Source of the DNA: Phoronis ovalis | Lineage: Eukaryota; Phoronida; Phoronidae | Direction: 5' to 3' | NCBI GenBank assembly: GCA_028565635.1 | Contig: JAOXYB010015965.1 | Coordinates: forward strand, 7,286 to 29,367 | Length of the DNA stretch: 22,082 nt | Shown here: positions 1-22,082 of the stretch, piece by piece | How positions within the stretch are numbered: position 1 is the first letter of the stretch | How the letters are laid out: every line of letters begins with the position of its first letter | The notes under the pieces: model-generated | Seen by the model: only the letters and a program-made list of their open reading frames with translations | Told to the model about the DNA's origin: nothing | Databases searched by the model: none | Program-made: the position numbers and the translations under genes

Positions 1-111
1 ACCGGATTAAAGATATACAGTATTAACCGGATTAAAGATATACAGTATTAACCGGATTAAAGATATACAGTATTAACCGGATTAAAGATATACAGTATTA
101 ACTGGATTAAA
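1..111. repeat. 25-bp tandem repeat array, left end
   Basis: Four exact 25-bp units occupy 1-100, each beginning ACCGGATTAAAGATATACAG. A fifth partial, slightly diverged unit starts at 101 (ACTGGATTAAA). The array begins at the first base of the window, so its real length is unknown. It lies in the intron after the last visible exon of the left-arm gene. Confidence 0.95.
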
Positions 112-593
112 CTAGTTGGTTGTCTTGGGTAGAACGTGAGTTTAAGAGGTTAAACACTTTTGATGACATCGATGTATAAGTTTCCGCAGTTTTATAGGCC
201 TACGACGAATGTTTGCCCTGATATTCACGCAATACCAGTTTTCAAGCCAAGAAACCCTAACCCAACTACAAACTAAAATGTGGATAATATGAAGAAGACA
301 GTTTTAAAATACTTATAATCCTTATATGCTGTGGCTAGTGATATTCCATCGTAAATCTCAAAAATGTGTTGACAGTGTTTAGTATAGTTTGTAATATTTA
401 ATTATTCCATATAATACCGTTTCCTAAGCATTTTAATGCATATCGCAAGTGGTTCATATAATTTAAAGACATGCTTTTACTGTGTTTGGGTGAAATTCTT
501 ACTGAGCATATAATTTTCTATGAATTTTACGAGCTAAAAGTATATGCCTAGATTAAAATCATGTCTCAGATAAAGAAACTATATAGTACATAC

Positions 594-756
594 CTGGACC
601 AGATCCATCATAATACAAATTATGGATGAGGAATGTTTTTGAATTTAATATCGTTACACTTCCATTGACTCCATGATTTGGATTTTGAAATTCACCGACA
701 ATTAGATGTGCAGGGGGTTCAAAAACTGCTGGGACGTTAACGTGGCCGAAACTTAC
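594..756 (-). CDS. Exon 11, left-arm copy: DM13 domain 1 end and DM13 domain 2 start
   Basis: Exact mirror of 21327-21489 and the last visible exon before the left window edge. Confidence 0.9.
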
Positions 757-3700
757 CTGAAACGAAAAATATGCAAATGTTTGATAAAAAACATAAATAT
801 GTCTCGTAACCAGCTAGAAACATCACAAATTTAAAAATGTATTTGTGCAACAAGACGTGTGCACCTGAATATTGTGATTTTTTACATTTTACTGTAATGA
901 CTTATTCGTCTTCAACAGAATGCTGCGTGTTGGTTTCGATTTGAGAATATAAAATATTTCAGTCGGCACTATTTTCCCCACGAACATAAGCTAATGTGAT
1001 CTGCCACGCTATCAATGGAATAAATAAATTCAATGTTAACAACCGTTAAGTCATAAAAAATCATAGATAATACCTTAAAACATATTACAATTTAGACTGT
1101 GCTTAAAATGTTGAAATAATATATTACTCTGCGACAAGATCATGCCCTTGCACTAGAGTAGGAACTTTACAATGGTCTCTTACTGTACACACAACTTACA
1201 TTAAAGTCGGCACACCACACGGAAATCCACTTCAAATCCGTAATGTGTACTCCCTCTGGTAGATTCAGAGTAATGTTTTCATCTTTATATTCTCTTAGTT
1301 TGCTAGTTCTGAAATATAAAGTTTAGCACACCTCGTTTTTTTAGGAAGTGCTGGCTTTTTGAAGTCATATATACACCAGACAGGAATGAATCGAAGTACA
1401 TGTATTTTTTTAACGTGGCGTTTTAATATTAGCCCCTTTTTAAATCGAAACTTGTATTCGGTTCTGTTTGCTATTGGAGTGTGCGATTCATGGATATGTT
1501 TCATACGGATAATATTACATGCGAAATAATTGGCACTGTATTTAAAGGATAGACGTTCAATTAACAAAGAGATAATACCTAGGGAGCATTACCCTTTTAT
1601 AAAATTACATGAACGTTATAATAACTCGAAAACTTGTGTATGTCATACAGTTATGGTATTGTGGTATTTAGACGATGTTTTAGCTGTAAAATGACTTTAA
1701 AGACGTTAAATACATGTATGCTACCGTTTACAGGAACATGTCAATGTTATACTTCTAAATCCCGATATATGGCACAAGTCAATCAATAGACTATTTGCAT
1801 GCACTTGAGGGCGCTACAGTCACAGTGCAGTCAGACCCTTTCAATACCGTAATCCTTTAGTTATACACACAACCTTTTTTTTCTTAATCTGACTTTAGGA
1901 AAGATGTAACCAATAAAATTTAACAAAATAAAAAAACATTCAGTAATAAATAGTTGTTTATGTATTGATATGCTCACTAAAAGGAGGATATTTCTTAGAC
2001 CAAAGAACATCAGATTGCGTGAGCGCACGCAAAACTACCTCAGTGTTCATTCACAGAATGCGACATACCTGAGACTAGTGGCTCCACCAAGTGCATGCGA
2101 ATAGTCTATAAGAGGCCCCAAACTGTATTAATCTGCACGTGTTTTTCTCCTTTTTATTCCATTTTTACTTTTTTGGGTTAGTCGTGCATGGTGATCACTT
2201 TTATTGAAAACGAACAAGCCAGAGGTTGAAAATGCACTTTTAAAAATAAAAATGACATTCTTTTTGTGCATTGGAAGCCCGCAAAAAGTTTCGGATAGTT
2301 TGCACAATTTCTCACCAGGTGGCCTAAATTAGGCTTTAGCAAAAACGTTTACTGGCCACACCATCACGAAAAATCAAGTTTAGACTAGACACATAATCTC
2401 AATGTGTGATTGGATAAAAATATCATAATCTCAGGTTACAGTTTATGGAAAGAATTATTGCATATATACCAATTTGGGAATACACAAACACGAACGTTTA
2501 AGAAATGGCATGTTTTCGATAATATTCATACATTTTTTAAAGATAATTTAATGTGTTAGAACCTGCATGGAATCCGCTGTGATATGTTAACAATTCAGTT
2601 AATGCAAAGTTAGAAGTAAATAAAAATTATATCATTTACCCTCCAAGTTCATCAGCTATAGCTACGCCTGTGTGATCAACTTCATCACTGGCATTGTTCT
2701 TGAAACCAATCCAAAAGTATGCAGCTGAAAACATAAAACATGCAGTGTAATTCGGTGACGCAGAACTAGGTCAATCCGACACTGAACTCTATTTTATTTT
2801 GCCATGTTGCTCAAAATAAAAAGTGGTAATTTCAGATGAATTTAAATATAGACACCTTATACAGATGAATAAACTTCAAAAGTGTTCGATACCGAATAAC
2901 CGTAAAAATAGCTTGACTGGCAGTACAAGTCCACTTTCTAGTTTATTGGCAAAAATAGCAACTTCCTACTATGACATTATTGGGTACAAACATTTCCACG
3001 AAAAGCTTGAAATTATAAACTTTAAATTAATAGTTGAGAGCATGTATTTTTTAAAAAATATATTTTATTGATTTGTTGGTGTAAGGTAAGATTCAAGCAA
3101 ATTCAGTATAAACTTGAAAATGTCTTTGGAATGGTCATACATTTTGATAAAGCCACAACTCAGTCTCGATAGCCCCACGCAAACACCAGGAAGTTGTTTA
3201 ACCATTGCTTTTAAGGCTGATTTCAATAGATTATTAGTAACTCGCAAATCATGTTATTTATAATCATGAATTTTACATATTTTCTAAAATGCGTATTTAT
3301 ACACGATGCGTTCTGACAAATTTTAAATGTTGGTTATACTAATGTGTGATCATTGTATTTACCTGCTTAGATAATACGTTGGAGCCATTGAAATATTATT
3401 CAATATCATAGTCAGTGGTATATTACAAGTTCACGGTTACTAATTAATGAAATTGCTGAATATCATACGTACACCTGCGTAAACATTTACAGTTAATGGA
3501 TTTTTAAAGCTAAAGAAAGTTACCATTTTAATCAACATATTGCTTACAGGGGCTTAGGGGCCAACGGTCCCATAACAAGCACTCTATTACCCGTGTGATT
3601 AAAACCCGTAAACTTATTTTGTCACCTGATAAAATAGAAAGCAGCTAACACTAATGAAATATAGAGCCTTAAATAATATATGTCGGGGAATCAGCAGCTT

Positions 3701-6700
3701 AATTAATCGTGCAATCTTACCAGTAGTGGAATAGTTTCTTTATAATTTCGTTTTTAATAAGCAAATTAAGTGAAACTTAATTAGACACCAGCTCAAGATG
3801 TCATTATTTCACACTTCAAATTATGGCTTGAATTGACATTTTGTTTGGTTTTACTACAATTAAATAGGTACTCGTTAAAACATGCAAATGATAAAATAAA
3901 TTACCTGGACCTTCGCCGTCATAGTTGAAGTTTACAATTCGAATGGTGTCGGCATCCACTGCGAACACTTCTCCGGACAACCCGTGGGTGACATTTTTAA
4001 AACTGCCAATGAATTTACCATTGTAATCCGTTTCTGGCGAAAAGAGAGAAAAGCACCGTGTAACAAGATATCATTACTGAGAGTAGATCAAATTCTAGCT
4101 ATATATTTTGTGTAGACGCCATTTTACCAGCTTACTTTTGTAAATTACACAAGTGACCGGATTAATCGAGCTACCTATCGTTTCCCATTACTATTTAACC
4201 ACGTCGCACAGTCTTACTTGTTTTTTCAGGTTCGGCAGTAGTGTTTACCGCTTCAGATTCTGGGGTTGCTTCTGCTTCTGGTTCAGAAGTTCCTCCAGCT
4301 TCTACTTCACTAGTGGGCTCCGGTTCACCTACAGTCAGTGGTGAGCTACTCGTGACAGGGAAACGCTGACATTGTGGAGTGATTGTATTAGGCTTCCATC
4401 CCAAAGCCACCCAAGTTGAAGATTTAACCCTCATAACGACATCGATTTCTTCAAGCTATAACAAGCAGGACATTGTCGTGTGTAGTTACTGTAGAAGGAT
4501 GTGCAATTTCAAGAATAAAGACTAACATTTCTGTATAGCCTCTTTCTGAACTCGAATGTCTTGTGATAAGGTTGTGATAAGAAAATTGTATTTAATTAAG
4601 CAGAATACCTATATAAAAAAGTAATATATAAAGGTGAACAATATTTGTATATGTCAAAAGCGGTAATTCAGTTCAAATTCAAATATTGTGTTGCTTTATT
4701 TTTCAAGATTATTTTCCTTTGCACGCACTTGTACGTATTTCACAGTAATAAATAAAATAGTTATGAATGCAGAAATGTATTTTCCATATTTATTATCGAA
4801 TGCGGTGTATAAATATATGTTTCGACACAGCGTTTGCAGATTATTACCTCTTCTGTACATGTATCGATTATGTATTCAAAATAGTTGTTTTACCATTAAA
4901 TGTGTGCTTATTTATGCTTTCATCATGATTTGTCCATATTGTCATCTGAATGCTTCCAGCAGAAGCTGAACATGCCTCAGGAGAAGACCTAATAGAGGGT
5001 CACTGAACATCAGTGAGGAATCCATATTATTACAAAAAAGTATTGCAGTTATTTAATATAACTCACCTCAGGAAGGACCTTCCAGTAGAGATCATACTCA
5101 TTTGCTCGAAGTTGTCTATACATATAATCGTCATACGAAACGATGACTGTATCGATACTGGACGCTAGAAGCAGAACAAATCAACACATCATGTAGTTGA
5201 ATGTATTTAAGTTTTACGTGTGAACTTTACGTAGTGTCAGTTTACCATACAATATTCAAAGCTCATATAGTACAAGTTATATTCCAGCACCATTTGTTAT
5301 CGTAATCAAAATAAAAACGGGCTGAAATAAAGTGGGAATCATTAGACATGACTTACTCGTGTTGCATCCCTCACCCATCCAGCCGGCCATACAGTAACAT
5401 TGCTTCTTTGGGTAAACCGTCGACTTGATGTCAATACATTCACCATGTACGCAGTCTGCATTATCCACACATTCGTCTGAATAAAAGGTAGACAATACAT
5501 AGGCAACATATCTAACGTGTAATAGATTTATCACAAGAATGTTTTATTTAAAGTTAATCATATCCAATAGAGTACAGCCGCGAACACAATGTTAGTTAAC
5601 TTGTAAAGTATAGTGTCGATTATTGAGTAATATGGCTCGTAAGATGTCTTTGAAAAATCGTTGAATTGCTGTATTGTTTAAGTTTAGAAATAAACCAAGT
5701 TCCGAGGTTTCACAATGGCGCCATCATAATGTAGTCAAAGGTGTCTATAAAAGACGTCTAATGGAGCTACGAACACTGCCCTTTATAAGCAGACGATGTG
5801 CACATGTTGCTGTTTTTAATGTTTTACTAATTGTACATATTAACTTAACTGGCCTGTAGACAAGTTGTCGTTGTATATACGCGAGCACTTTATAAAGACT
5901 GGGCTGTATTTGTAAAGACTATATTATATATGCATATCGACTGGGAGAAGGGACAGTTTTCATAATCATATGTGTTAAGATATAACAATAATTTTAAAAA
6001 CTTAATTGTTCAATAAGTAACTATATTCCGAAATGGGATATAGTTTAACTGCTATTGTTTAAGGAGTGATTGGGTTTAGTTCATTCCATCAGACCAAATG
6101 TCTGCATAAGCGAAATTCTCATCTAAAAGTCCCTGTGATCTGTATAGCACGTGTACGTTACATCATTTTTAGAACGTTACGATGACGAAAGCACAAGGAC
6201 CAAATGAGCTAAAATATAGTAAAATTCTCACCTTTATTTTCACAGTTGTCACCAGAGTATAACTTTTCACATTCGCATTTTCCGTTTGCGACGTTGCCGT
6301 GACCAGAGCAATCGGAGGTAAATGAAGATTCTAAAACAAGAGATTAGTTATACAGTGTAAGGGGGGAAATATCAAAACATTGAAATTATCATTGATAGTA
6401 AAATTTATAAACATGTAGAAATTAATCAAAGATACATATCTCAACTATAGAATATACGTATTTTGTGCCTTTATAAAATAATTAGAGATCAAGGTATCTG
6501 TTTGCTATGACCGGTGTAATCCCAAAATATTAAACAGGAAATATCACTTATCATGACACCTTTTCGGCCAAATAAATTAAAGTGCCATGATTTCCACGTG
6601 CTGTGCACCTCCTGTGTTCACCTACCAGATAAATATTTTGAAGAATATCACATGAAATACACATTATAGCTATCACTTATAACTCAAGGAATATTGCAAA

Positions 6701-9504
6701 AAATACGCATAAAAGTCAAACTTCTACGACTACCGGTAAAATAGCACAGCTACCAGGTAACACATACTAGAATTACATTGGTAAATATCGCTTGCATTAT
6801 AGCATGAAGCATATATAATACCTACCATTTACAATTCGGATATCTGCACAGCTCCAGAATATGTAACCAGCAGCTCCAGCAGACCATTCAGCCGCCTGCC
6901 TCCGAAGTCTAAGAACACAGCTATCACATAGGAATCCAGGGGGTAATGTAACCTCTTGAAGTTGAGCACTATAATATACCCGACAAATGTCTGACATTTC
7001 AGGCCATGTATAGATTTACTTTCTGGGAGGAATTACTTAAGAACAAAAAATACCGCCCACTATTTCTTTAGTCTAATAAAATTAAAAATATTCTGCTGGT
7101 TAAGATAACGAAGTTGGCTAGTGCAACATTTGATAAGCCTGTAACTTATTTTAATAACTTAAAAGTTTATCTTTGTGCCACTAATTTAAGGTCGTGCAGT
7201 AATGAAACTTACGCTGAAAGGTTCGTTATCGTAAGGGGTACCACAGAAATATACAGACGTATACAGACATGTACCTCTAAATTATCAACTACCCAAAACC
7301 GTACTTCATGCAGTATTTACATGCAGTACATACTTCATGCAGTATGTACTCAGAAAAGGGAAATATCGCATGTAAGAGCGAGAATTCCGCTCACGGAAAG
7401 TTTTGCAAAAATATTAATGACTTCCTAATGGGGCTAGAAGAGTTCCGCCTTGCGGAAATTGTCCGCAAAGTACTAAACTTTACATAACAAATATTTGTGA
7501 GTAAAAAAAAGTATGAAATTGAAATATATTTTTTACGGTGAAATTGGCTCACGTGCGCAAAAAAATGGAACATTTTAATTCTTGTGATTTTTAGGGGGAT
7601 ATTATTTTCGCTCTGGAGCAACTTCTACCGGATGGATTTTCACAAAACAAACTGTAAAATAAAGGTAATATAATTATCTAGAGGGACCTGGGTGTAGCAA
7701 AATAAAATTCTTGCAAATACCTTATTTAGCCTGTCCACAGGCTGAGGAAAGACTAATTATATAAGGATTTAATATATTGATAGTTGACAATTTTGATAAT
7801 TTTCCTCATATTTCGTCATTTATAACAATGCTATCAATAAATTGATCATTATTAGTGCTGAAAATAAAAAGATATAAAATTGGGGTTTTCGGGCCTATGG
7901 TATCGAACTATCAAAATTTAAATATGACTAAATATAAGTTACACAGTTGAAAAAGTACAATTTATCATCACTGTAGACAATTTGAGAAAAAAAAAATCAC
8001 TTTAGGCAATTTGAGTAAACAAAATATTTAATGATACAAATTGCATTATTCACACTGAGTCCAGTCTAATTAATACCTTATTGCAAATTTGATTTATCTT
8101 CTTTACAGGCCTTCCATTCCAAATAGAATCGCGATCCTAGGTACACCTGATCTGAGATGGCCCAGTTTGTTTTTAGTTCAACTTATATGTCAATTATTCT
8201 TTGTTTATATGCTAAATTACTCCAGCCTATTGGTTAGAACACCTGTGATTTATTACATGGAGATCATTTTATGAACGGTTGACCTGTGAAATCACAAGTT
8301 AAGCTCCACCCCTATTTCCACATTGTAAAATACTATTTGTCTCAATTACCTTTTCACGTGATAATATCACCTATCTTTTTGCTAGGTATGTTTTGCAAAC
8401 AAAAAATGATTAAGTCTGGTATACTTGAAATGCACGACATAAACATTTAATAGAAATTGGAAGCTTTTTGTGGGTTTGTTTACAGTGGTTTAATATCCGG
8501 GTCACGTGACCAATACCCGCTAAAATTGGATCAGCATTCACTATCAAATTTAGGCCATTTGAGAAATTGATATACCAATTTATCATCATTTTTACTCTCT
8601 TAGGAATCTGCAATGTTTATGAAATACAATATGCTTACAGAAAATGCTTTTTACAAGGGATTTGAGCAATAAATTAAATGTTGACCTCGTGTTGGCATGC
8701 GCTACTATGAACGAGATCTTGCCAGCCGGGTACGTATAGCAAAAAGGCCGGTACGGTTATGGGAAACTGTAAATATGAGGTACATGTCTGTATACGTTAA
8801 TGTACCCCGGGTACATTTCTGTAGTATCCCTTGCGACAACGACCCTTCCAGACATACTTACGTAGAATCGTTGAGTCCTGTCCAACTAGTATTTAGTGCA
8901 GGAGCAAGCTGATATAAAACCGTACCATTGTCAGAAAGTATTTCTAGACGGTAGCCACCCTGCAATAAGGGATATTTTTTTTTGTTTTTATGAATATTCA
9001 TATATTTCATATTGAATTGCAGATAATGTTAAATGATAAAGTGAATAAGTAATACAGATCCCTTCCACCAGGTGACGCTGGTGAAGATACTTGAAGTTGG
9101 TACTGTTAAGGAAATCGGTTCGATCATTATGCCAGATTAAGCTTTATAAAGTCCTGACACATTATTTGCGGAAACCTTGCAAGTCATATCAACCGAGAAG
9201 ATATTATTTTAAGCTGAAAAGATCGTTCGTAAATGTCATAGGTGTTAATATAGTGTTAAATGAAGCATTAACGTGACATGATCATGTTGTAAGATCAAAT
9301 GTTTACTTGCTATACGAAAGGAACTCACTTCAAAATATAATTGAGGTCAAATATAGGCAGTTTCATATTACATCTAATGATTCACCAACATGGACTCTAG
9401 AAACAGATGTTTATTAATACCTACCCTGTGTGGATAAGATAGATGCCACGACACATTCAAATTGGCGCCTGCAGGTAAATTTGTTATATAACTGCCATTT
9501 AAAC
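594..9504 (-). CDS. Skeletor-like multidomain secreted protein, partial at both ends, left-arm mirror copy
   Basis: This is the exact mirror of the right-arm gene. Exons in transcription order on the - strand: 9504-9425, 8959-8862, 6968-6826, 6330-6232, 5476-5357, 5164-5067, 4455-4218, 4033-3905, 2724-2640, 1308-1200, 756-594. Splice sites, phases and the 453-residue product are identical. The two copies lie head to head across the axis, both lacking their first exon(s), and both run out of the window 3'. If the palindrome is an artefact, this and the right-arm copy are one locus. Confidence 0.88.
1200..1308 (-). CDS. Exon 10, left-arm copy: DM13 domain 1 with conserved cysteine
   Basis: Exact mirror of 20775-20883. 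It encodes the S-V-W-C-A-D-F segment. Confidence 0.92.
1786..2109. mobile_element. MITE-like element, left arm
   Basis: Exact mirror of 19974-20297, with the same terminal inverted repeats; the internal hairpin is at 2015-2032. Confidence 0.78.
2640..2724 (-). CDS. Exon 9, left-arm copy: DM13 domain 1, middle
   Basis: Exact mirror of 19359-19443. It opens with AYFWIG. Confidence 0.92.
3905..4033 (-). CDS. Exon 8, left-arm copy: DM13 domain 1, N-terminal part
   Basis: Exact mirror of 18050-18178. It ends in the Y-D-G-E-G-P motif. Confidence 0.92.
4218..4455 (-). CDS. Exon 7, left-arm copy: DOMON-like second half and acidic linker
   Basis: Exact mirror of 17628-17865. It encodes TWVALGWKP and the Ser/Thr/Pro/Glu-rich linker. 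Confidence 0.88.
5067..5164 (-). CDS. Exon 6, left-arm copy: DOMON-like first half
   Basis: Exact mirror of 16919-17016. It encodes the Y-D-L-Y-W-K-V strand. Confidence 0.8.
5357..5476 (-). CDS. Exon 5, left-arm copy: EGF-like module 2
   Basis: Exact mirror of 16607-16726, the six-cysteine EGF exon. Confidence 0.92.
6232..6330 (-). CDS. Exon 4, left-arm copy: EGF-like module 1
   Basis: Exact mirror of 15753-15851, the four-cysteine EGF-like exon with symmetric 1-1 phases. Confidence 0.87.
6826..6968 (-). CDS. Exon 3, left-arm copy: C-terminal part of the AA15-like domain
   Basis: Exact mirror of 15115-15257. It encodes the C-x-x-C and FWSCADIRI segment. Confidence 0.83.
7208..7304 (+). repeat. 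Dispersed repeat copy B, left arm
   Basis: Exact mirror of 14779-14875. Confidence 0.75.
8751..8857 (-). repeat. Dispersed repeat copy A, left arm
   Basis: Exact mirror of 13226-13332. Confidence 0.75.
8862..8959 (-). CDS. Exon 2, left-arm copy: AA15/chitin-binding-4-like domain, part 2
   Basis: Exact mirror of 13124-13221. It encodes the GGYRLEIL segment. Confidence 0.85.
9425..9504 (-). CDS. Exon 1, left-arm copy: AA15/chitin-binding-4-like domain, part 1
   Basis: Exact mirror of 12579-12658, with the same acceptor and GTAGGT donor read on the - strand. It encodes the L-P-A-G and W-H-L-S-Y-P-H-R segment. Confidence 0.82.
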
Positions 9505-9910
9505 CTGTGAAAATAAAGATCAAATAAACAACTTCATGTGCGAATTTTTCTACATGTGTAAGAAAACGTTAAAGCCTCAAGTGCTCGAATATATTAGCGC
9601 ATGAGAGGGATGTCAGTCATACATCCTATGGTGTGTAAAGGCATGGGAAACAACATTGCTGTATTTTTTCCATATTTTCAATTTAGACATATAATATGAT
9701 ATTTTTAGAAAAACAGATGGATATTTATGTTGTTAAGCTTATTTTTTTAATTATCAATTTAATACTCATTTGTAGCATTTCTGTATCGTAGTAGAAACAT
9801 TCACTCATTGAGAGCCTCGCAGTTGCTGTCTGTTAGTTCATTATGTAAACAGTTCTTAAAAAATAATCATGTTATTACTTAAAGAAATAAAATCATATTA
9901 ATCAAAAAAT

Positions 9911-10051
9911 GGTTTATTGAATGTAGATCTGGTTATTACAGTACCATGGCTTATATTGGTTTATTGGATGTATATCTGGTTATTACAGTACCGTTGTTTA
10001 TATTGTTTTATTGGATGCAGATCTGGTTATTACAGTACCATTGCTTATATT
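9911..10051. repeat. 47-bp tandem repeat, three copies, left arm
   Basis: Mirror of 12032-12172. Units start at 9911, 9958 and 10005, and each contains ATCTGGTTATTACAGTAC. Confidence 0.9.
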
Positions 10052-10589
10052 GATTTACAAATGTCCAGTTTTACAATGCAGACCTACTAGCTTAATTATA
10101 CTAATTTTTAAAATGATAACGCAATGACCCTAGCTGCTCGTATACTGTCTTCATAGTGTCTACTGCAACAAGTAAACTAAGCAGACTAAGACTTCATTTA
10201 CATATTAAAATACTTCAAATAACCTAGAAAATATAATGACGTCACTAAACTGCTTGCTGACGAATTTGCAAGCATTCTTCTAAGAAATTGTATAGCAATG
10301 TGTTCCGGCATCCGGAAAAAGTTGTGTACTCAATACAACTGCTTTATATGCTAACGGTCCTTGTTCCGTTGAAACTAGATTATACAGTATATGTTTTAAT
10401 GTGTATCGGACAAACACTAAACATGCATGTATATGTACATGTACTGCGATCATGATTAGCTAATTTGTTTAGAAAAGTATACCACGTGTGGAACAGATGC
10501 ATATTATTACTATACATTTGTTTTTATTATGCCCTAATATATGCTTACAGTGGAAAAGAATAAAAAAGTAAAAATCGTAAAAGAAACGT

Positions 10590-10686
10590 AGACAATCGAG
10601 AATTAAATCAGTGACCTTTAGATTTTGAATTTAACGCTCTCCAAACTAAGCTATGTTCCTGGTCTTCCAACTGAGCTATGTTCCCC
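10590..10686 (-). repeat. tRNA-like (SINE-type) element, left arm
   Basis: Exact mirror of 11397-11493, on the - strand. Confidence 0.5.
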
Positions 10687-10989
10687 GATTTCTATTTATG
10701 TTGCTATATAATCGTATATTGTTAAGAGTAAACATGCAACGATTGTTGAAACTGATGACTGACTAGTACTAATGATTTATTCGCAAACGTACGTGCGGTT
10801 TCAAAACATCTACTATTTCATAAATGTATATGTTATCTCTATGTTGAATCTATTTGAAGTTCATATTTGTATTTCAAGGAAGTAACTATCTGCCTGTTGT
10901 GCCACATGACATTGAATAAATAATCACGTGTAGCAAAGCAAAGAGAGATAGAATTGAAAAAACCGATCAAATAAATATTTAGACTGCCG

Positions 10990-11093: not shown

Positions 11094-11396
11094 CGGCAGT
11101 CTAAATATTTATTTGATCGGTTTTTTCAATTCTATCTCTCTTTGCTTTGCTACACGTGATTATTTATTCAATGTCATGTGGCACAACAGGCAGATAGTTA
11201 CTTCCTTGAAATACAAATATGAACTTCAAATAGATTCAACATAGAGATAACATATACATTTATGAAATAGTAGATGTTTTGAAACCGCACGTACGTTTGC
11301 GAATAAATCATTAGTACTAGTCAGTCATCAGTTTCAACAATCGTTGCATGTTTACTCTTAACAATATACGATTATATAGCAACATAAATAGAAATC

Positions 11397-11493
11397 GGGG
11401 AACATAGCTCAGTTGGAAGACCAGGAACATAGCTTAGTTTGGAGAGCGTTAAATTCAAAATCTAAAGGTCACTGATTTAATTCTCGATTGTCT
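11397..11493 (+). repeat. tRNA-like (SINE-type) element with duplicated 5' half, right arm
   Basis: ATAGCTCAGTTGG and then ATAGCTTAGTTTGGAGAGC both resemble a tRNA D-arm/A-box. They are followed by an anticodon-arm-like stretch (loop TTCAAAA, CAA at the anticodon position) and a degenerate B-box-like GGTCACTGATTTAATTC. The D-stem GCTT/GAGC pairs, allowing G-T. The second A-box copy inserts about 25 bp, so a normal tRNA cannot fold from the whole element. It is probably a tRNA-derived SINE head or tRNA pseudogene; no 3' tail could be assigned. Confidence 0.5.
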
Positions 11494-12031
11494 ACGTTTC
11501 TTTTACGATTTTTACTTTTTTATTCTTTTCCACTGTAAGCATATATTAGGGCATAATAAAAACAAATGTATAGTAATAATATGCATCTGTTCCACACGTG
11601 GTATACTTTTCTAAACAAATTAGCTAATCATGATCGCAGTACATGTACATATACATGCATGTTTAGTGTTTGTCCGATACACATTAAAACATATACTGTA
11701 TAATCTAGTTTCAACGGAACAAGGACCGTTAGCATATAAAGCAGTTGTATTGAGTACACAACTTTTTCCGGATGCCGGAACACATTGCTATACAATTTCT
11801 TAGAAGAATGCTTGCAAATTCGTCAGCAAGCAGTTTAGTGACGTCATTATATTTTCTAGGTTATTTGAAGTATTTTAATATGTAAATGAAGTCTTAGTCT
11901 GCTTAGTTTACTTGTTGCAGTAGACACTATGAAGACAGTATACGAGCAGCTAGGGTCATTGCGTTATCATTTTAAAAATTAGTATAATTAAGCTAGTAGG
12001 TCTGCATTGTAAAACTGGACATTTGTAAATC

Positions 12032-12172
12032 AATATAAGCAATGGTACTGTAATAACCAGATCTGCATCCAATAAAACAATATAAACAACGGTACTGTAA
12101 TAACCAGATATACATCCAATAAACCAATATAAGCCATGGTACTGTAATAACCAGATCTACATTCAATAAACC
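12032..12172. repeat. 47-bp tandem repeat, three copies, right arm
   Basis: Three consecutive 47-bp units, each containing GTACTGTAATAACCAGAT and a CCAATAAA-like segment, differ by a few substitutions. A partial fourth unit fades out before 12032. The units begin and end without visible target-site duplication, so this looks like a minisatellite within non-coding DNA. Confidence 0.9.
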
Positions 12173-12578
12173 ATTTTTTGATTAATATGATTTTATTTCT
12201 TTAAGTAATAACATGATTATTTTTTAAGAACTGTTTACATAATGAACTAACAGACAGCAACTGCGAGGCTCTCAATGAGTGAATGTTTCTACTACGATAC
12301 AGAAATGCTACAAATGAGTATTAAATTGATAATTAAAAAAATAAGCTTAACAACATAAATATCCATCTGTTTTTCTAAAAATATCATATTATATGTCTAA
12401 ATTGAAAATATGGAAAAAATACAGCAATGTTGTTTCCCATGCCTTTACACACCATAGGATGTATGACTGACATCCCTCTCATGCGCTAATATATTCGAGC
12501 ACTTGAGGCTTTAACGTTTTCTTACACATGTAGAAAAATTCGCACATGAAGTTGTTTATTTGATCTTTATTTTCACAG

Positions 12579-12658
12579 GTTTAAATGGCAGTTATATAAC
12601 AAATTTACCTGCAGGCGCCAATTTGAATGTGTCGTGGCATCTATCTTATCCACACAGG
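12579..12658 (+). CDS. Exon 1 (first visible): AA15/chitin-binding-4-like domain, part 1
   Basis: The acceptor TTTTCACAG precedes 12579 and the donor GTAGGT follows 12658. The exon starts with two bases of a split codon and ends on a full codon. It encodes residues 1-26, including NLPAGANLNVSWHLSYPHR. A glycine-flanked beta strand followed by W-H-L-x-Y-P-H-R is recognisable from invertebrate chitin-binding type-4-like proteins. The split first codon proves that at least one upstream exon exists; I could not find it between here and the axis. Confidence 0.82.
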
Positions 12659-15600
12659 GTAGGTATTAATAAACATCTGTTTCTAGAGTCCATGTTGGTG
12701 AATCATTAGATGTAATATGAAACTGCCTATATTTGACCTCAATTATATTTTGAAGTGAGTTCCTTTCGTATAGCAAGTAAACATTTGATCTTACAACATG
12801 ATCATGTCACGTTAATGCTTCATTTAACACTATATTAACACCTATGACATTTACGAACGATCTTTTCAGCTTAAAATAATATCTTCTCGGTTGATATGAC
12901 TTGCAAGGTTTCCGCAAATAATGTGTCAGGACTTTATAAAGCTTAATCTGGCATAATGATCGAACCGATTTCCTTAACAGTACCAACTTCAAGTATCTTC
13001 ACCAGCGTCACCTGGTGGAAGGGATCTGTATTACTTATTCACTTTATCATTTAACATTATCTGCAATTCAATATGAAATATATGAATATTCATAAAAACA
13101 AAAAAAAATATCCCTTATTGCAGGGTGGCTACCGTCTAGAAATACTTTCTGACAATGGTACGGTTTTATATCAGCTTGCTCCTGCACTAAATACTAGTTG
13201 GACAGGACTCAACGATTCTACGTAAGTATGTCTGGAAGGGTCGTTGTCGCAAGGGATACTACAGAAATGTACCCGGGGTACATTAACGTATACAGACATG
13301 TACCTCATATTTACAGTTTCCCATAACCGTACCGGCCTTTTTGCTATACGTACCCGGCTGGCAAGATCTCGTTCATAGTAGCGCATGCCAACACGAGGTC
13401 AACATTTAATTTATTGCTCAAATCCCTTGTAAAAAGCATTTTCTGTAAGCATATTGTATTTCATAAACATTGCAGATTCCTAAGAGAGTAAAAATGATGA
13501 TAAATTGGTATATCAATTTCTCAAATGGCCTAAATTTGATAGTGAATGCTGATCCAATTTTAGCGGGTATTGGTCACGTGACCCGGATATTAAACCACTG
13601 TAAACAAACCCACAAAAAGCTTCCAATTTCTATTAAATGTTTATGTCGTGCATTTCAAGTATACCAGACTTAATCATTTTTTGTTTGCAAAACATACCTA
13701 GCAAAAAGATAGGTGATATTATCACGTGAAAAGGTAATTGAGACAAATAGTATTTTACAATGTGGAAATAGGGGTGGAGCTTAACTTGTGATTTCACAGG
13801 TCAACCGTTCATAAAATGATCTCCATGTAATAAATCACAGGTGTTCTAACCAATAGGCTGGAGTAATTTAGCATATAAACAAAGAATAATTGACATATAA
13901 GTTGAACTAAAAACAAACTGGGCCATCTCAGATCAGGTGTACCTAGGATCGCGATTCTATTTGGAATGGAAGGCCTGTAAAGAAGATAAATCAAATTTGC
14001 AATAAGGTATTAATTAGACTGGACTCAGTGTGAATAATGCAATTTGTATCATTAAATATTTTGTTTACTCAAATTGCCTAAAGTGATTTTTTTTTTCTCA
14101 AATTGTCTACAGTGATGATAAATTGTACTTTTTCAACTGTGTAACTTATATTTAGTCATATTTAAATTTTGATAGTTCGATACCATAGGCCCGAAAACCC
14201 CAATTTTATATCTTTTTATTTTCAGCACTAATAATGATCAATTTATTGATAGCATTGTTATAAATGACGAAATATGAGGAAAATTATCAAAATTGTCAAC
14301 TATCAATATATTAAATCCTTATATAATTAGTCTTTCCTCAGCCTGTGGACAGGCTAAATAAGGTATTTGCAAGAATTTTATTTTGCTACACCCAGGTCCC
14401 TCTAGATAATTATATTACCTTTATTTTACAGTTTGTTTTGTGAAAATCCATCCGGTAGAAGTTGCTCCAGAGCGAAAATAATATCCCCCTAAAAATCACA
14501 AGAATTAAAATGTTCCATTTTTTTGCGCACGTGAGCCAATTTCACCGTAAAAAATATATTTCAATTTCATACTTTTTTTTACTCACAAATATTTGTTATG
14601 TAAAGTTTAGTACTTTGCGGACAATTTCCGCAAGGCGGAACTCTTCTAGCCCCATTAGGAAGTCATTAATATTTTTGCAAAACTTTCCGTGAGCGGAATT
14701 CTCGCTCTTACATGCGATATTTCCCTTTTCTGAGTACATACTGCATGAAGTATGTACTGCATGTAAATACTGCATGAAGTACGGTTTTGGGTAGTTGATA
14801 ATTTAGAGGTACATGTCTGTATACGTCTGTATATTTCTGTGGTACCCCTTACGATAACGAACCTTTCAGCGTAAGTTTCATTACTGCACGACCTTAAATT
14901 AGTGGCACAAAGATAAACTTTTAAGTTATTAAAATAAGTTACAGGCTTATCAAATGTTGCACTAGCCAACTTCGTTATCTTAACCAGCAGAATATTTTTA
15001 ATTTTATTAGACTAAAGAAATAGTGGGCGGTATTTTTTGTTCTTAAGTAATTCCTCCCAGAAAGTAAATCTATACATGGCCTGAAATGTCAGACATTTGT
15101 CGGGTATATTATAGTGCTCAACTTCAAGAGGTTACATTACCCCCTGGATTCCTATGTGATAGCTGTGTTCTTAGACTTCGGAGGCAGGCGGCTGAATGGT
15201 CTGCTGGAGCTGCTGGTTACATATTCTGGAGCTGTGCAGATATCCGAATTGTAAATGGTAGGTATTATATATGCTTCATGCTATAATGCAAGCGATATTT
15301 ACCAATGTAATTCTAGTATGTGTTACCTGGTAGCTGTGCTATTTTACCGGTAGTCGTAGAAGTTTGACTTTTATGCGTATTTTTTGCAATATTCCTTGAG
15401 TTATAAGTGATAGCTATAATGTGTATTTCATGTGATATTCTTCAAAATATTTATCTGGTAGGTGAACACAGGAGGTGCACAGCACGTGGAAATCATGGCA
15501 CTTTAATTTATTTGGCCGAAAAGGTGTCATGATAAGTGATATTTCCTGTTTAATATTTTGGGATTACACCGGTCATAGCAAACAGATACCTTGATCTCTA

Positions 15601-18600
15601 ATTATTTTATAAAGGCACAAAATACGTATATTCTATAGTTGAGATATGTATCTTTGATTAATTTCTACATGTTTATAAATTTTACTATCAATGATAATTT
15701 CAATGTTTTGATATTTCCCCCCTTACACTGTATAACTAATCTCTTGTTTTAGAATCTTCATTTACCTCCGATTGCTCTGGTCACGGCAACGTCGCAAACG
15801 GAAAATGCGAATGTGAAAAGTTATACTCTGGTGACAACTGTGAAAATAAAGGTGAGAATTTTACTATATTTTAGCTCATTTGGTCCTTGTGCTTTCGTCA
15901 TCGTAACGTTCTAAAAATGATGTAACGTACACGTGCTATACAGATCACAGGGACTTTTAGATGAGAATTTCGCTTATGCAGACATTTGGTCTGATGGAAT
16001 GAACTAAACCCAATCACTCCTTAAACAATAGCAGTTAAACTATATCCCATTTCGGAATATAGTTACTTATTGAACAATTAAGTTTTTAAAATTATTGTTA
16101 TATCTTAACACATATGATTATGAAAACTGTCCCTTCTCCCAGTCGATATGCATATATAATATAGTCTTTACAAATACAGCCCAGTCTTTATAAAGTGCTC
16201 GCGTATATACAACGACAACTTGTCTACAGGCCAGTTAAGTTAATATGTACAATTAGTAAAACATTAAAAACAGCAACATGTGCACATCGTCTGCTTATAA
16301 AGGGCAGTGTTCGTAGCTCCATTAGACGTCTTTTATAGACACCTTTGACTACATTATGATGGCGCCATTGTGAAACCTCGGAACTTGGTTTATTTCTAAA
16401 CTTAAACAATACAGCAATTCAACGATTTTTCAAAGACATCTTACGAGCCATATTACTCAATAATCGACACTATACTTTACAAGTTAACTAACATTGTGTT
16501 CGCGGCTGTACTCTATTGGATATGATTAACTTTAAATAAAACATTCTTGTGATAAATCTATTACACGTTAGATATGTTGCCTATGTATTGTCTACCTTTT
16601 ATTCAGACGAATGTGTGGATAATGCAGACTGCGTACATGGTGAATGTATTGACATCAAGTCGACGGTTTACCCAAAGAAGCAATGTTACTGTATGGCCGG
16701 CTGGATGGGTGAGGGATGCAACACGAGTAAGTCATGTCTAATGATTCCCACTTTATTTCAGCCCGTTTTTATTTTGATTACGATAACAAATGGTGCTGGA
16801 ATATAACTTGTACTATATGAGCTTTGAATATTGTATGGTAAACTGACACTACGTAAAGTTCACACGTAAAACTTAAATACATTCAACTACATGATGTGTT
16901 GATTTGTTCTGCTTCTAGCGTCCAGTATCGATACAGTCATCGTTTCGTATGACGATTATATGTATAGACAACTTCGAGCAAATGAGTATGATCTCTACTG
17001 GAAGGTCCTTCCTGAGGTGAGTTATATTAAATAACTGCAATACTTTTTTGTAATAATATGGATTCCTCACTGATGTTCAGTGACCCTCTATTAGGTCTTC
17101 TCCTGAGGCATGTTCAGCTTCTGCTGGAAGCATTCAGATGACAATATGGACAAATCATGATGAAAGCATAAATAAGCACACATTTAATGGTAAAACAACT
17201 ATTTTGAATACATAATCGATACATGTACAGAAGAGGTAATAATCTGCAAACGCTGTGTCGAAACATATATTTATACACCGCATTCGATAATAAATATGGA
17301 AAATACATTTCTGCATTCATAACTATTTTATTTATTACTGTGAAATACGTACAAGTGCGTGCAAAGGAAAATAATCTTGAAAAATAAAGCAACACAATAT
17401 TTGAATTTGAACTGAATTACCGCTTTTGACATATACAAATATTGTTCACCTTTATATATTACTTTTTTATATAGGTATTCTGCTTAATTAAATACAATTT
17501 TCTTATCACAACCTTATCACAAGACATTCGAGTTCAGAAAGAGGCTATACAGAAATGTTAGTCTTTATTCTTGAAATTGCACATCCTTCTACAGTAACTA
17601 CACACGACAATGTCCTGCTTGTTATAGCTTGAAGAAATCGATGTCGTTATGAGGGTTAAATCTTCAACTTGGGTGGCTTTGGGATGGAAGCCTAATACAA
17701 TCACTCCACAATGTCAGCGTTTCCCTGTCACGAGTAGCTCACCACTGACTGTAGGTGAACCGGAGCCCACTAGTGAAGTAGAAGCTGGAGGAACTTCTGA
17801 ACCAGAAGCAGAAGCAACCCCAGAATCTGAAGCGGTAAACACTACTGCCGAACCTGAAAAAACAAGTAAGACTGTGCGACGTGGTTAAATAGTAATGGGA
17901 AACGATAGGTAGCTCGATTAATCCGGTCACTTGTGTAATTTACAAAAGTAAGCTGGTAAAATGGCGTCTACACAAAATATATAGCTAGAATTTGATCTAC
18001 TCTCAGTAATGATATCTTGTTACACGGTGCTTTTCTCTCTTTTCGCCAGAAACGGATTACAATGGTAAATTCATTGGCAGTTTTAAAAATGTCACCCACG
18101 GGTTGTCCGGAGAAGTGTTCGCAGTGGATGCCGACACCATTCGAATTGTAAACTTCAACTATGACGGCGAAGGTCCAGGTAATTTATTTTATCATTTGCA
18201 TGTTTTAACGAGTACCTATTTAATTGTAGTAAAACCAAACAAAATGTCAATTCAAGCCATAATTTGAAGTGTGAAATAATGACATCTTGAGCTGGTGTCT
18301 AATTAAGTTTCACTTAATTTGCTTATTAAAAACGAAATTATAAAGAAACTATTCCACTACTGGTAAGATTGCACGATTAATTAAGCTGCTGATTCCCCGA
18401 CATATATTATTTAAGGCTCTATATTTCATTAGTGTTAGCTGCTTTCTATTTTATCAGGTGACAAAATAAGTTTACGGGTTTTAATCACACGGGTAATAGA
18501 GTGCTTGTTATGGGACCGTTGGCCCCTAAGCCCCTGTAAGCAATATGTTGATTAAAATGGTAACTTTCTTTAGCTTTAAAAATCCATTAACTGTAAATGT

Positions 18601-21489
18601 TTACGCAGGTGTACGTATGATATTCAGCAATTTCATTAATTAGTAACCGTGAACTTGTAATATACCACTGACTATGATATTGAATAATATTTCAATGGCT
18701 CCAACGTATTATCTAAGCAGGTAAATACAATGATCACACATTAGTATAACCAACATTTAAAATTTGTCAGAACGCATCGTGTATAAATACGCATTTTAGA
18801 AAATATGTAAAATTCATGATTATAAATAACATGATTTGCGAGTTACTAATAATCTATTGAAATCAGCCTTAAAAGCAATGGTTAAACAACTTCCTGGTGT
18901 TTGCGTGGGGCTATCGAGACTGAGTTGTGGCTTTATCAAAATGTATGACCATTCCAAAGACATTTTCAAGTTTATACTGAATTTGCTTGAATCTTACCTT
19001 ACACCAACAAATCAATAAAATATATTTTTTAAAAAATACATGCTCTCAACTATTAATTTAAAGTTTATAATTTCAAGCTTTTCGTGGAAATGTTTGTACC
19101 CAATAATGTCATAGTAGGAAGTTGCTATTTTTGCCAATAAACTAGAAAGTGGACTTGTACTGCCAGTCAAGCTATTTTTACGGTTATTCGGTATCGAACA
19201 CTTTTGAAGTTTATTCATCTGTATAAGGTGTCTATATTTAAATTCATCTGAAATTACCACTTTTTATTTTGAGCAACATGGCAAAATAAAATAGAGTTCA
19301 GTGTCGGATTGACCTAGTTCTGCGTCACCGAATTACACTGCATGTTTTATGTTTTCAGCTGCATACTTTTGGATTGGTTTCAAGAACAATGCCAGTGATG
19401 AAGTTGATCACACAGGCGTAGCTATAGCTGATGAACTTGGAGGGTAAATGATATAATTTTTATTTACTTCTAACTTTGCATTAACTGAATTGTTAACATA
19501 TCACAGCGGATTCCATGCAGGTTCTAACACATTAAATTATCTTTAAAAAATGTATGAATATTATCGAAAACATGCCATTTCTTAAACGTTCGTGTTTGTG
19601 TATTCCCAAATTGGTATATATGCAATAATTCTTTCCATAAACTGTAACCTGAGATTATGATATTTTTATCCAATCACACATTGAGATTATGTGTCTAGTC
19701 TAAACTTGATTTTTCGTGATGGTGTGGCCAGTAAACGTTTTTGCTAAAGCCTAATTTAGGCCACCTGGTGAGAAATTGTGCAAACTATCCGAAACTTTTT
19801 GCGGGCTTCCAATGCACAAAAAGAATGTCATTTTTATTTTTAAAAGTGCATTTTCAACCTCTGGCTTGTTCGTTTTCAATAAAAGTGATCACCATGCACG
19901 ACTAACCCAAAAAAGTAAAAATGGAATAAAAAGGAGAAAAACACGTGCAGATTAATACAGTTTGGGGCCTCTTATAGACTATTCGCATGCACTTGGTGGA
20001 GCCACTAGTCTCAGGTATGTCGCATTCTGTGAATGAACACTGAGGTAGTTTTGCGTGCGCTCACGCAATCTGATGTTCTTTGGTCTAAGAAATATCCTCC
20101 TTTTAGTGAGCATATCAATACATAAACAACTATTTATTACTGAATGTTTTTTTATTTTGTTAAATTTTATTGGTTACATCTTTCCTAAAGTCAGATTAAG
20201 AAAAAAAAGGTTGTGTGTATAACTAAAGGATTACGGTATTGAAAGGGTCTGACTGCACTGTGACTGTAGCGCCCTCAAGTGCATGCAAATAGTCTATTGA
20301 TTGACTTGTGCCATATATCGGGATTTAGAAGTATAACATTGACATGTTCCTGTAAACGGTAGCATACATGTATTTAACGTCTTTAAAGTCATTTTACAGC
20401 TAAAACATCGTCTAAATACCACAATACCATAACTGTATGACATACACAAGTTTTCGAGTTATTATAACGTTCATGTAATTTTATAAAAGGGTAATGCTCC
20501 CTAGGTATTATCTCTTTGTTAATTGAACGTCTATCCTTTAAATACAGTGCCAATTATTTCGCATGTAATATTATCCGTATGAAACATATCCATGAATCGC
20601 ACACTCCAATAGCAAACAGAACCGAATACAAGTTTCGATTTAAAAAGGGGCTAATATTAAAACGCCACGTTAAAAAAATACATGTACTTCGATTCATTCC
20701 TGTCTGGTGTATATATGACTTCAAAAAGCCAGCACTTCCTAAAAAAACGAGGTGTGCTAAACTTTATATTTCAGAACTAGCAAACTAAGAGAATATAAAG
20801 ATGAAAACATTACTCTGAATCTACCAGAGGGAGTACACATTACGGATTTGAAGTGGATTTCCGTGTGGTGTGCCGACTTTAATGTAAGTTGTGTGTACAG
20901 TAAGAGACCATTGTAAAGTTCCTACTCTAGTGCAAGGGCATGATCTTGTCGCAGAGTAATATATTATTTCAACATTTTAAGCACAGTCTAAATTGTAATA
21001 TGTTTTAAGGTATTATCTATGATTTTTTATGACTTAACGGTTGTTAACATTGAATTTATTTATTCCATTGATAGCGTGGCAGATCACATTAGCTTATGTT
21101 CGTGGGGAAAATAGTGCCGACTGAAATATTTTATATTCTCAAATCGAAACCAACACGCAGCATTCTGTTGAAGACGAATAAGTCATTACAGTAAAATGTA
21201 AAAAATCACAATATTCAGGTGCACACGTCTTGTTGCACAAATACATTTTTAAATTTGTGATGTTTCTAGCTGGTTACGAGACATATTTATGTTTTTTATC
21301 AAACATTTGCATATTTTTCGTTTCAGGTAAGTTTCGGCCACGTTAACGTCCCAGCAGTTTTTGAACCCCCTGCACATCTAATTGTCGGTGAATTTCAAAA
21401 TCCAAATCATGGAGTCAATGGAAGTGTAACGATATTAAATTCAAAAACATTCCTCATCCATAATTTGTATTATGATGGATCTGGTCCAG
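12579..21489 (+). CDS. Skeletor-like multidomain secreted protein (AA15/CBM-like, EGF x2, DOMON-like, DM13 x2), partial at both ends, right-arm copy
   Basis: Eleven exons join in one frame: 12579-12658, 13124-13221, 15115-15257, 15753-15851, 16607-16726, 16919-17016, 17628-17865, 18050-18178, 19359-19443, 20775-20883, 21327-21489. All introns are GT..AG and all phases match, giving 453 residues without a stop. Domains by residue: AA15/chitin-binding-4-like 1-106; EGF-like 114-136 and 142-177; DOMON-like 184-245; acidic linker 246-291; DM13 no. 1 about 293-408; DM13 no. 2 from about 415, unfinished. DM13 and DOMON are redox or heme-associated modules; DM13-DM13-DOMON is the core of Skeletor-type proteins. 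EGF modules and paired cysteines imply an extracellular protein, probably matrix- or cuticle-associated (inference). The start codon and signal peptide are not visible upstream, and the 3' end lies outside the window. Exon structure is firm; biochemical role is not known. Confidence 0.88.
12659..13123 (+). other. Intron 1 (mirror 8960-9424)
   Basis: AT-rich intron with donor GTAGGT and acceptor TTATTGCAG. I see no other feature in it; the 61-codon antisense frame it contains has no recognisable domain. Confidence 0.75.
13124..13221 (+). CDS. Exon 2: AA15/chitin-binding-4-like domain, part 2
   Basis: The acceptor TTATTGCAG and donor GTAAGT define it; phase 0 in, two bases left over. It encodes residues 27-58, starting GGYRLEILSDNG, so the join with exon 1 reads YPHRGGYRLEIL, a continuous beta-sandwich strand pair. 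One NTS and one NDS sequon are present (the latter as N-D-S-T). The donor lies immediately beside a diverged repeat copy in intron 2. Confidence 0.85.
13226..13332 (+). repeat. Dispersed repeat copy A in intron 2, forward, right arm
   Basis: It shares a long, clearly alignable stretch with the reverse complement of 14779-14875. Common blocks include GTATACAGACATGTACCTC, an AAGGG-GTAC/ATAC-ACAGAAAT block and a terminal AACCGTAC. Copy A has about 13 extra bases (a GTACCCGGGGTAC palindrome) near its middle. It begins within 5 bp of the exon 2 donor. Probably an end of, or a whole copy of, a short non-autonomous element. Confidence 0.75.
14068..14116 (+). repeat. Pair of 20-bp direct repeats in intron 2 (mirror 7967-8015)
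   Basis: CTCAAATTGCCTAAAGTGAT at 14068 and CTCAAATTGTCTACAGTGAT at 14097 differ at two positions and are separated by a T run. A looser third version begins near 13520 (CTCAAATGGCCTAAATTTGA). Likely remnants of one old repeat family. Confidence 0.55.
14340..14355. repeat. Short perfect hairpin in intron 2 (mirror 7728-7743)
   Basis: AGCCTGTGGACAGGCT forms a 7-bp stem with a 2-base loop. No function is evident in this intronic position. Confidence 0.5.
14779..14875 (-). repeat. Dispersed repeat copy B in intron 2, inverted, right arm
   Basis: Inverted, diverged partner of 13226-13332. Similarity does not visibly extend past either end. The pair could be terminal inverted repeats of a 1.65-kb element or two separate insertions; no transposase-like frame lies between them. 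Confidence 0.75.
15115..15257 (+). CDS. Exon 3: C-terminal part of the AA15/chitin-binding-4-like domain
   Basis: It encodes residues 60-106. The pattern V-T-L-P-P-G-F-L-C-x-x-C-V-L-R-L-R-R-Q-A then an aromatic stretch and FWSCADIRI resembles the C-terminal cysteine core of AA15/chitin-binding type-4 proteins (C73, C76, C99). I chose the acceptor at 15113-15114 because its phase joins exon 2 to give N-D-S-T-A-Q-L-Q-E-V. The open frame extends further upstream through MSDIC, but an acceptor there (AG at 15091-15092) would put exon 3 out of phase with exon 2. The N-terminal histidine needed for a copper LPMO active site would lie in a missing exon, so activity cannot be judged. Confidence 0.83.
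15258..15752 (+). other. Intron 3 (mirror 6331-6825)
   Basis: Donor GTAGGT, acceptor CTTGTTTTAG. AT-rich; I see nothing else in it. Confidence 0.75.
15753..15851 (+). CDS. Exon 4: EGF-like module 1 (reduced cysteines)
   Basis: The acceptor CTTGTTTTAG and donor GTGAGA bound a symmetric phase 1-1 exon, residues 108-139. The core is C-S-G-H-G-N-V-A-N-G-K-C-E-C then G-D-N-C. Only four cysteines are present (C114, C125, C127, C136). The usual cysteine after the H-G turn is absent. It reads like the short EGF type seen after a C-x-G-H-G motif. Confidence 0.87.
15852..16606 (+). other. Intron 4 (mirror 5477-6231)
   Basis: Donor GTGAGA, acceptor TTTTATTCAG. The antisense 61-codon frame inside has no recognisable domain. 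I see no repeat. Confidence 0.75.
16607..16726 (+). CDS. Exon 5: EGF-like module 2 (six cysteines)
   Basis: The acceptor TTTTATTCAG and donor GTAAGT bound a second symmetric phase 1-1 exon, residues 141-179. Six cysteines (142, 148, 153, 166, 168, 177) have the spacing of a complete EGF domain, with C-Y-C-M-A-G-W-M-G-E-G-C at the end. One module per 1-1 exon is the classic arrangement for exon shuffling in extracellular proteins. Confidence 0.92.
16919..17016 (+). CDS. Exon 6: DOMON-like segment, first half
   Basis: The acceptor TGCTTCTAG and donor GTGAGT bound residues 181-212. The segment carries SYDDYMYRQL and YDLYWKVLPE. The Y-D-L-Y-W-K-V strand matches the start of DOMON domains, where an aromatic/W strand precedes the ligand-binding beta sandwich. 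It ends on a complete codon. Confidence 0.8.
17017..17627 (+). other. Intron 6 (mirror 4456-5066)
   Basis: Donor GTGAGT, acceptor TTGTTATAG. It interrupts the DOMON-like segment between W-K-V-L-P-E and L-E-E-I-D. The antisense 93-codon frame has no recognisable domain. No other feature seen. Confidence 0.75.
17628..17865 (+). CDS. Exon 7: DOMON-like second half plus acidic linker
   Basis: The acceptor TTGTTATAG and donor GTAAGA bound residues 213-291. Residues 213-234 (E-E-I-D-V-V-M-R-V then TWVALGWKP) complete the first half of a DOMON fold. C241 follows in ITPQCQRFP. Instead of continuing through the DOMON core, the chain enters an acidic Ser/Thr/Pro/Glu linker (about 246-291, with repeated S-E-P-E, E-A, P-E), which is probably unstructured and could be O-glycosylated. 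The open frame runs past the donor to a stop at 17886-17888, so intron retention would end the protein early. Confidence 0.88.
18050..18178 (+). CDS. Exon 8: DM13 domain 1, N-terminal part
   Basis: The acceptor TTTCGCCAG and donor GTAATT bound residues 293-334. Hallmarks are G-K-F-I-G-S-F, H-G-L-S-G-E-V, T-I-R-I-V-N-F and Y-D-G-E-G-P, the conserved opening strands of DM13 domains, proposed to be electron-transfer modules. Phase 1 at the end splits the codon after G-P. Confidence 0.92.
18179..19358 (+). other. Intron 8 (mirror 2725-3904)
   Basis: Donor GTAATT, acceptor GTTTTCAG, within the G-P|A-A-Y-F-W motif of DM13 no. 1. The 60- and 82-codon frames inside look like chance. I see no defined repeat. 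Confidence 0.75.
19359..19443 (+). CDS. Exon 9: DM13 domain 1, middle
   Basis: The acceptor GTTTTCAG and donor GTAAAT bound residues 336-362. It opens AYFWIGFKNN, so the join reads Y-D-G-E-G-P-A-A-Y-F-W-I-G, the most recognisable DM13 signature (commonly G-P-D-A-Y-F-W; the D is A here). It ends with two bases of a glycine codon. Confidence 0.92.
19444..20774 (+). other. Intron 9 (mirror 1309-2639)
   Basis: Donor GTAAAT, acceptor TATATTTCAG. It contains the MITE-like element at 19974-20297. The 90-codon frame at 20516-20788 runs across the acceptor into exon 10 in another frame and has no recognisable domain. Confidence 0.75.
19974..20297. mobile_element. MITE-like element with about 30-bp terminal inverted repeats, right arm
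   Basis: Both ends read ATAGACTATT[C/T]GCATGCAC inward and stay similar for about 30 bp (then TTG, G-rich, GC, AC). The element is 324 bp with no coding capacity. A perfect internal hairpin, TTGCGTG-CGCT-CACGCAA, lies at 20051-20068. I could not assign a clean target-site duplication. Size, terminal inverted repeats and intronic position fit a non-autonomous DNA transposon; the superfamily is undetermined. Confidence 0.78.
20775..20883 (+). CDS. Exon 10: DM13 domain 1, part with the conserved cysteine
   Basis: The acceptor TATATTTCAG and donor GTAAGT bound residues 364-399. The pattern L-R-E-Y-K then I-T-L-N-L-P-E-G then L-K-W-I-S-V-W-C-A-D-F-N is typical of DM13. C395 in S-V-W-C is the near-invariant cysteine proposed to serve in redox chemistry or metal/heme contact. 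It ends on a full codon. Confidence 0.92.
20884..21326 (+). other. Intron 10 (mirror 757-1199)
   Basis: Donor GTAAGT, acceptor CGTTTCAG. It is followed directly by another GTAAGT, which is coding in exon 11. Nothing else seen. Confidence 0.75.
21327..21489 (+). CDS. Exon 11: end of DM13 domain 1 and start of DM13 domain 2
   Basis: The acceptor CGTTTCAG and donor GTATGT bound residues 400-453. VSFGHVNVP closes DM13 no. 1. G-E-F-Q-N then H-G-V-N-G-S-V and Y-Y-D-G-S-G-P open DM13 no. 2. The donor splits the codon after G-P in phase 1, exactly as exon 8 does. The next exon, expected to begin with an A-Y-F-W-like motif, lies outside the window. Confidence 0.9.
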
Positions 21490-21971
21490 GTATGTACTAT
21501 ATAGTTTCTTTATCTGAGACATGATTTTAATCTAGGCATATACTTTTAGCTCGTAAAATTCATAGAAAATTATATGCTCAGTAAGAATTTCACCCAAACA
21601 CAGTAAAAGCATGTCTTTAAATTATATGAACCACTTGCGATATGCATTAAAATGCTTAGGAAACGGTATTATATGGAATAATTAAATATTACAAACTATA
21701 CTAAACACTGTCAACACATTTTTGAGATTTACGATGGAATATCACTAGCCACAGCATATAAGGATTATAAGTATTTTAAAACTGTCTTCTTCATATTATC
21801 CACATTTTAGTTTGTAGTTGGGTTAGGGTTTCTTGGCTTGAAAACTGGTATTGCGTGAATATCAGGGCAAACATTCGTCGTAGGCCTATAAAACTGCGGA
21901 AACTTATACATCGATGTCATCAAAAGTGTTTAACCTCTTAAACTCACGTTCTACCCAAGACAACCAACTAG
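21490..21971 (+). other. Start of intron 11, open at the window edge (mirror 112-593)
   Basis: Donor GTATGT follows exon 11. No acceptor with a DM13-like continuation is visible before the 25-bp tandem array, so the intron continues beyond the window. I see nothing else here. Confidence 0.65.
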
Positions 21972-22082
21972 TTTAATCCAGTTAATACTGTATATCTTTA
22001 ATCCGGTTAATACTGTATATCTTTAATCCGGTTAATACTGTATATCTTTAATCCGGTTAATACTGTATATCTTTAATCCGGT
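21972..22082. repeat. 25-bp tandem repeat array, right end
   Basis: This is the mirror copy of the array at 1-111: one diverged partial unit, then four exact 25-bp units running to the last base. The array is cut by the window edge, which suggests that sequence contiguity broke in this repeat. Confidence 0.95.

Follow-up and report, generated by a model that had tools for sequence, protein, structure and literature searches.

An inverted repeat with two perfectly identical arms raises the question of whether it exists in the genome or was created when a single copy was written twice during library making or assembly. This question was addressed for a stretch of 22,082 bp, referred to as the window, which covers positions 7286-29367 of a contig of 29,367 bp (C216). 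The initial annotation had described it as an exact spacerless palindrome of 22 kb, and this description is correct. The whole window is its own reverse complement with 0 mismatches at 22,082 of 22,082 positions, and the self-BLAST of the window gave a single inverted match of 22,082 bp with 100 % identity. The left arm at 1-11041 (C216:7286-18326, plus strand) is the exact reverse complement of the right arm at 11042-22082 (C216:18327-29367, minus strand), with a spacer of 0 and the symmetry axis at 11041/11042. Such a palindrome cannot have arisen by chance.

The axis lies within a pure TA run of 36 bp with 18 copies at 11024-11059 (C216:18309-18344), which is bordered by a TG-rich tract on the left and a CA-rich tract on the right, forming a compound TG...TA...CA microsatellite. 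Within one arm alone, the longest spacerless perfect palindrome is the terminal alternating TA of 18 bp. The left arm begins at its outer edge with a 25-bp minisatellite of 4.4 copies (1-111), mirrored at 21972-22082 at the contig end; it had no match outside C216 in a search that skips very common words. The presence of fast-evolving repeats inside the arms, another claim of the initial annotation, is confirmed by this minisatellite, by the microsatellites also found in the arms, and by a 47-bp minisatellite of 3.1 copies at 9910-10057. The latter lies between exon 2 of the gene described below and the axis and is the same in both arms.

The last base of the contig is also the last base of the right arm, and the 7,285 further positions to the left of the palindrome (C216:1-7285) are all N. 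This N block stops precisely where the palindrome, and with it the window, begins. A one-sided flank and a contig that ends at the outer edge of an arm are also what a collapsed real palindrome gives, and this counts against the artefact explanation, since a fork of diverging flanks would stop the contig at the same base. Neither the arm divergence nor the spacer, both 0, shows the asymmetric centre or the divergence between arms that is expected of a real genomic palindrome, although zero divergence could equally come from an assembler collapsing two arms.

It had been reasoned from the exactness across these repeats that the palindrome is either a fold-back artefact or a recent or gene-converted event. 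Exactness does not decide between the two, because the assembler outputs one consensus for both arms whether it has merged two real ones or passed through a single one twice. The palindrome is nevertheless very probably a technical fold-back artefact of library making or assembly. This side is favored because exon 1 is missing at the axis, a second contig has a like anatomy and the axis itself lies in a self-complementary tract.

The arm contains one gene on the minus strand of the left arm, with at least 11 exons or exon parts. The exons found are all open reading frames, and their borders are recognizably GT/AG, with one doubtful 3' border at 4210-4455. Exon 2 (9425-9505, minus strand) is the first coding exon found and aligns with residues 53-85 of the uncharacterized Saccoglossus protein P0001, including a WHLxYxHR motif. 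Ten further exons or exon parts with open frames and with DM13 and EGF-like matches lie on the minus strand within 592-8959, namely at 592-756, 1200-1307, 2639-2725, 3906-4034, 4210-4455, 5067-5162, 5355-5477, 6233-6331, 6827-6967 and 8861-8959. One Pfam match to DM13 exceeds the cut-off (36 bits vs 25), two more remain below it (22.9 and 19.6 bits), and the EGF-like models all match below their own cut-offs. A protein search returned 16 proteins with P0001 at the top (E-value 6.6e-59); Skeletor/DM13 proteins and a protein from Apostichopus (P0007, E-value 1.7e-46) were among the others. No Rfam family reached its gathering score in the arm. With a G+C content of 34 %, the arm looks like ordinary animal nuclear DNA.

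High-copy dispersed repeats are located between the exons of the gene. The element at 1784-2109 was found with approximately 70-90 % identity in 38 other contigs among the best 40 of 469 candidates. Another repeat, at 7206-7726 and 8072-8864, has inverted ends (approximately 7214-7304 vs 8751-8851) and is interrupted by a high-copy element of about 350 bp at 7721-8075. In the contigs C1363 and C2799, the parts from either side of this element adjoin, and the element is probably a nested insertion, judging from the arrangement of the copies.

Relatives start with a signal peptide and the pattern HVRLTFPPAR..FLDN.RT.GPCG, both encoded by exon 1. In the arm, exon 2 is preceded by a proper splice acceptor (TTTTCACAG), and an upstream exon is therefore expected. 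No exon 1 is recognizable in the part of intron 1 that separates exon 2 from the axis (9506-11041, minus strand; 1,536 bp). Searching the arm with four exon-1 peptides gave a best match of 16.9 bits, which is within chance, and searches with P0001 and P0007 did not recover exon 1 there either. The same two queries recovered exon 1 in the loci of two paralogues of the same assembly (C169:13848-13940 and C1436:6213-6305) with E-values of 2e-11 to 3e-10, serving as a positive control. In the search of the assembly, the six matches comprised exon 1 in C169 and C1436, and exon 2 in both arms of C216, in C169 and in C1436. The paralogue in C169 also has a long Glu/Pro/Ser/Thr repeat region.

Based on this exon structure, the axis falls in intron 1, with both arms carrying the same headless gene, the remaining exons of which are open. 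The junction interrupts the true locus by cutting the gene, as is expected of a fold-back artefact. A real duplication would require that both gene copies lost exon 1 at once and yet remained undecayed, which is conceivable only if it is very young, whereas an artefact gives this state naturally. The sequence past the axis, i.e. the arm gene's own exon 1, was not found in the contigs searched, the shortest of which seen had 10,001 bp, and this missing continuation counts against the artefact.

A second case in the same data supports the artefact. An inverted-repeat scan was applied to 28 loci from C216 and 22 contigs matching window positions 10000-11041, most of them scanned in part. In the contig C3817, positions 1-10062 form an exact palindrome with 0 mismatches and a spacer of 0, which begins at contig base 1 and has the axis ATATAT|ATATAT at 5031/5032. 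A tail of 560 bp (10063-10622) lies outside the palindrome on one side only. Its anatomy is the same as that of C216, with zero spacer, an AT-alternating axis and one edge at the contig end. The arm of C3817 ends in just 6 nt of alternating AT, so that any seed there must be short or masked by the symmetry. No tandem repeat was visible by eye at the stopping point, and no Pfam family was found in five of six frames of the first 5,031 bases, the search being for a gene cut by the axis. In the other 21 contigs scanned, inverted repeats were either absent or limited to 26-74 bp; the longest stretch (74 bp, 92 %) lies within a microsatellite at the start of C3767. C3817 thus provides the recurrence in the same data that is expected of a fold-back artefact, and the occurrence of two distinct exact cases in the contigs inspected argues against a real duplication.

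Mirror-image contigs are rare in the assembly, which comprises 4,805 contigs with 77.4 Mb; none besides C216 and C3817 was seen. Mirror pairs, i.e. two matches in one contig with equal query span and bits on opposite strands, were sought by eye in family searches. None occurred among 143 kinase, 148 7tm, 44 tRNA and 113 WD40 matches or among the at least 170 ankyrin matches listed. Opposite-strand neighbors do occur, for example tRNAs in C3638 and C4349, but their scores are unequal. Searches with dispersed repeats (66 and 57 matches) gave mirror pairs in C216 alone, and the search with the axial repeat (77 matches) gave them in C216 and C3817. This rarity counts against the artefact and favors a real duplication insofar as it indicates that no gross amplification artefact took place.

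The axial microsatellite lies at most 150 bp from the first base in 7 of the 34 other matching contigs, where 0.3 would be expected, counting contig starts only and by eye. TA/TG repeats are weak points at which this assembly breaks. Seven of the 23 contigs seen, which are not a random sample, have sizes of 10-11 kb, compared to a mean of 16.1 kb for all contigs, which points to a 10-kb length cut-off applied to the assembly and not to long reads. The breaks at microsatellites and the contig sizes look short-read-like, and the fold-back may therefore sit in the assembly graph instead of a long molecule. Regarding the origin of the assembly, the mitochondrial COX1 gene at C1114:10091-11431 has 90 % identity to Phoronopsis harmeri; among the best 120 matches, a single unnamed sequence at 87 % and then molluscs at up to 86 % come next. 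This one mitochondrial gene makes a phoronid the probable source.

A technical fold-back would mean that a single genomic copy of 11 kb was written twice, as forward sequence and as reverse complement, turning at the alternating TA tract. The responsible step could lie in the molecule, the read or the graph, which are candidates only. On the molecule route, the 3' end of a strand in the TA run would fold back or switch template and copy itself, i.e. snap-back synthesis would occur during amplification or library making. On the graph route, the assembly graph would close a hairpin at the TA run where the true continuation was lost, with the assembler then retracing the arm for as long as it had support. 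A hairpin made by the graph alone would be expected to continue as far as the mirror image of base 1. The observed stopping point therefore needs a further cause, which may be the end of a molecule or read or the minisatellite at 21972-22082. The last 91 nt of one arm do not form a strong hairpin at the axis, as they fold no better than shuffled sequences (z = -0.49, 54 of 200 as good). A pure k-mer loop in a de Bruijn graph is not favored as the single cause, as it would imply a k below about 36 for C216 and a smaller one still for C3817.

The literature describes several ways in which such structures are formed technically. One study describes fold-back long reads as a known artefact that common quality control tools often miss and that is able to tangle assembly graphs (PMC12870357). 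Another reports that amplification creates artificial palindromes and that 0.5 % of the reads of an unamplified control were flagged as palindromic, with part of these regarded as false positives (PMC6218980). Hairpin molecules arising by template switching at short inverted repeats are described for amplification with the T7 replisome (PMC9484634), impaired long-read assembly due to palindromic reads for amplified tardigrade DNA (PMC13265396), and artificial palindromes due to erroneous scaffolding in a further publication (PMC7953838). Fold-back reads and contigs have near-perfect reverse-complement arms, little or no spacer and a turn near a self-complementary seed. The window matches this with its exact arms, its missing spacer and the 36 bp of TA at the turn; it differs from fold-back reads in being a contig and not a read. 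A palindromic arrangement within a draft assembly is also known from the 2013 draft of Adineta vaga. A later study detected none in its relative A. ricciae and gave either true differences between the species or artefacts of the assembly as the explanation (PMC5916493). The palindromes of A. vaga are gene-level and consist of homologous copies, in contrast to the exact and spacerless palindrome in C216.

The strongest alternative to a technical fold-back is a real inverted duplication, very recent or perfectly gene-converted, whose arms were collapsed by the assembler and whose contig ends at the fork. A broken end folding back at the TA tract, or replication switching template there, would have created it in vivo. 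Inverted repeats are also described as breaking and rearranging chromosomes in vivo, and C3817 resembles C216 in stopping at the edge of an arm, with no visible repeat there. However, palindromes that are long, perfect and spacerless are highly unstable in living cells. The real primate Y palindromes P1-P8, which share large inverted gene-carrying arms with the present case, have spacers and unique flanks on both sides, compared to a spacer of 0 in C216. They also show approximately doubled read depth, as reported in PMC6218980. Moreover, no other contig combining the edge of the arm with a second flank was found. The initial annotation had proposed looking for the arm elsewhere with other flanking sequence. 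When the arm was searched in four pieces, only C216 matched besides dispersed repeats, and the only full-length second copy of the left arm, among the best 40 candidates scored in each of three of these searches, was the right arm. This result carries little weight for either explanation, since the smallest of the 23 contigs had 10,001 bp and shorter ones are apparently absent. Taken together, a real duplication is considered unlikely.

A broader version of the in vivo explanation holds that the phoronid genome carries young, symmetrical and spacerless palindromes of 10-22 kb that arise from AT-alternating tracts, with germ-line fold-back still ongoing and C216 and C3817 as its examples. This is considered quite unlikely. 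Extrachromosomal or programmed palindromic DNA, in the form of a linear hairpin-ended or dimeric molecule carrying a gene fragment, is highly improbable: perfect palindromic dimers are known from gene amplification and from the amplified rDNA of certain protists, but the 7,285 further positions on one side do not fit a bare dimer, and what the arms contain, a headless gene and dispersed repeats, includes nothing obviously replicating or selected. An old inverted duplication was rejected as the divergence is nil, and so was a transposon or viral inverted repeat as the cause, the arm being an intron-exon animal gene with dispersed repeats.

If the technical fold-back is the right reading, at least two contigs of this assembly contain falsely doubled sequence, and the genes in their arms should not be counted twice. 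Gene counts and claims of inverted duplicates or 'head-to-head gene pairs' derived from this draft need a palindrome screen. If the palindromes were real instead, the persistence of such long and perfect structures in the germ line of an animal would call current ideas on their instability into question.
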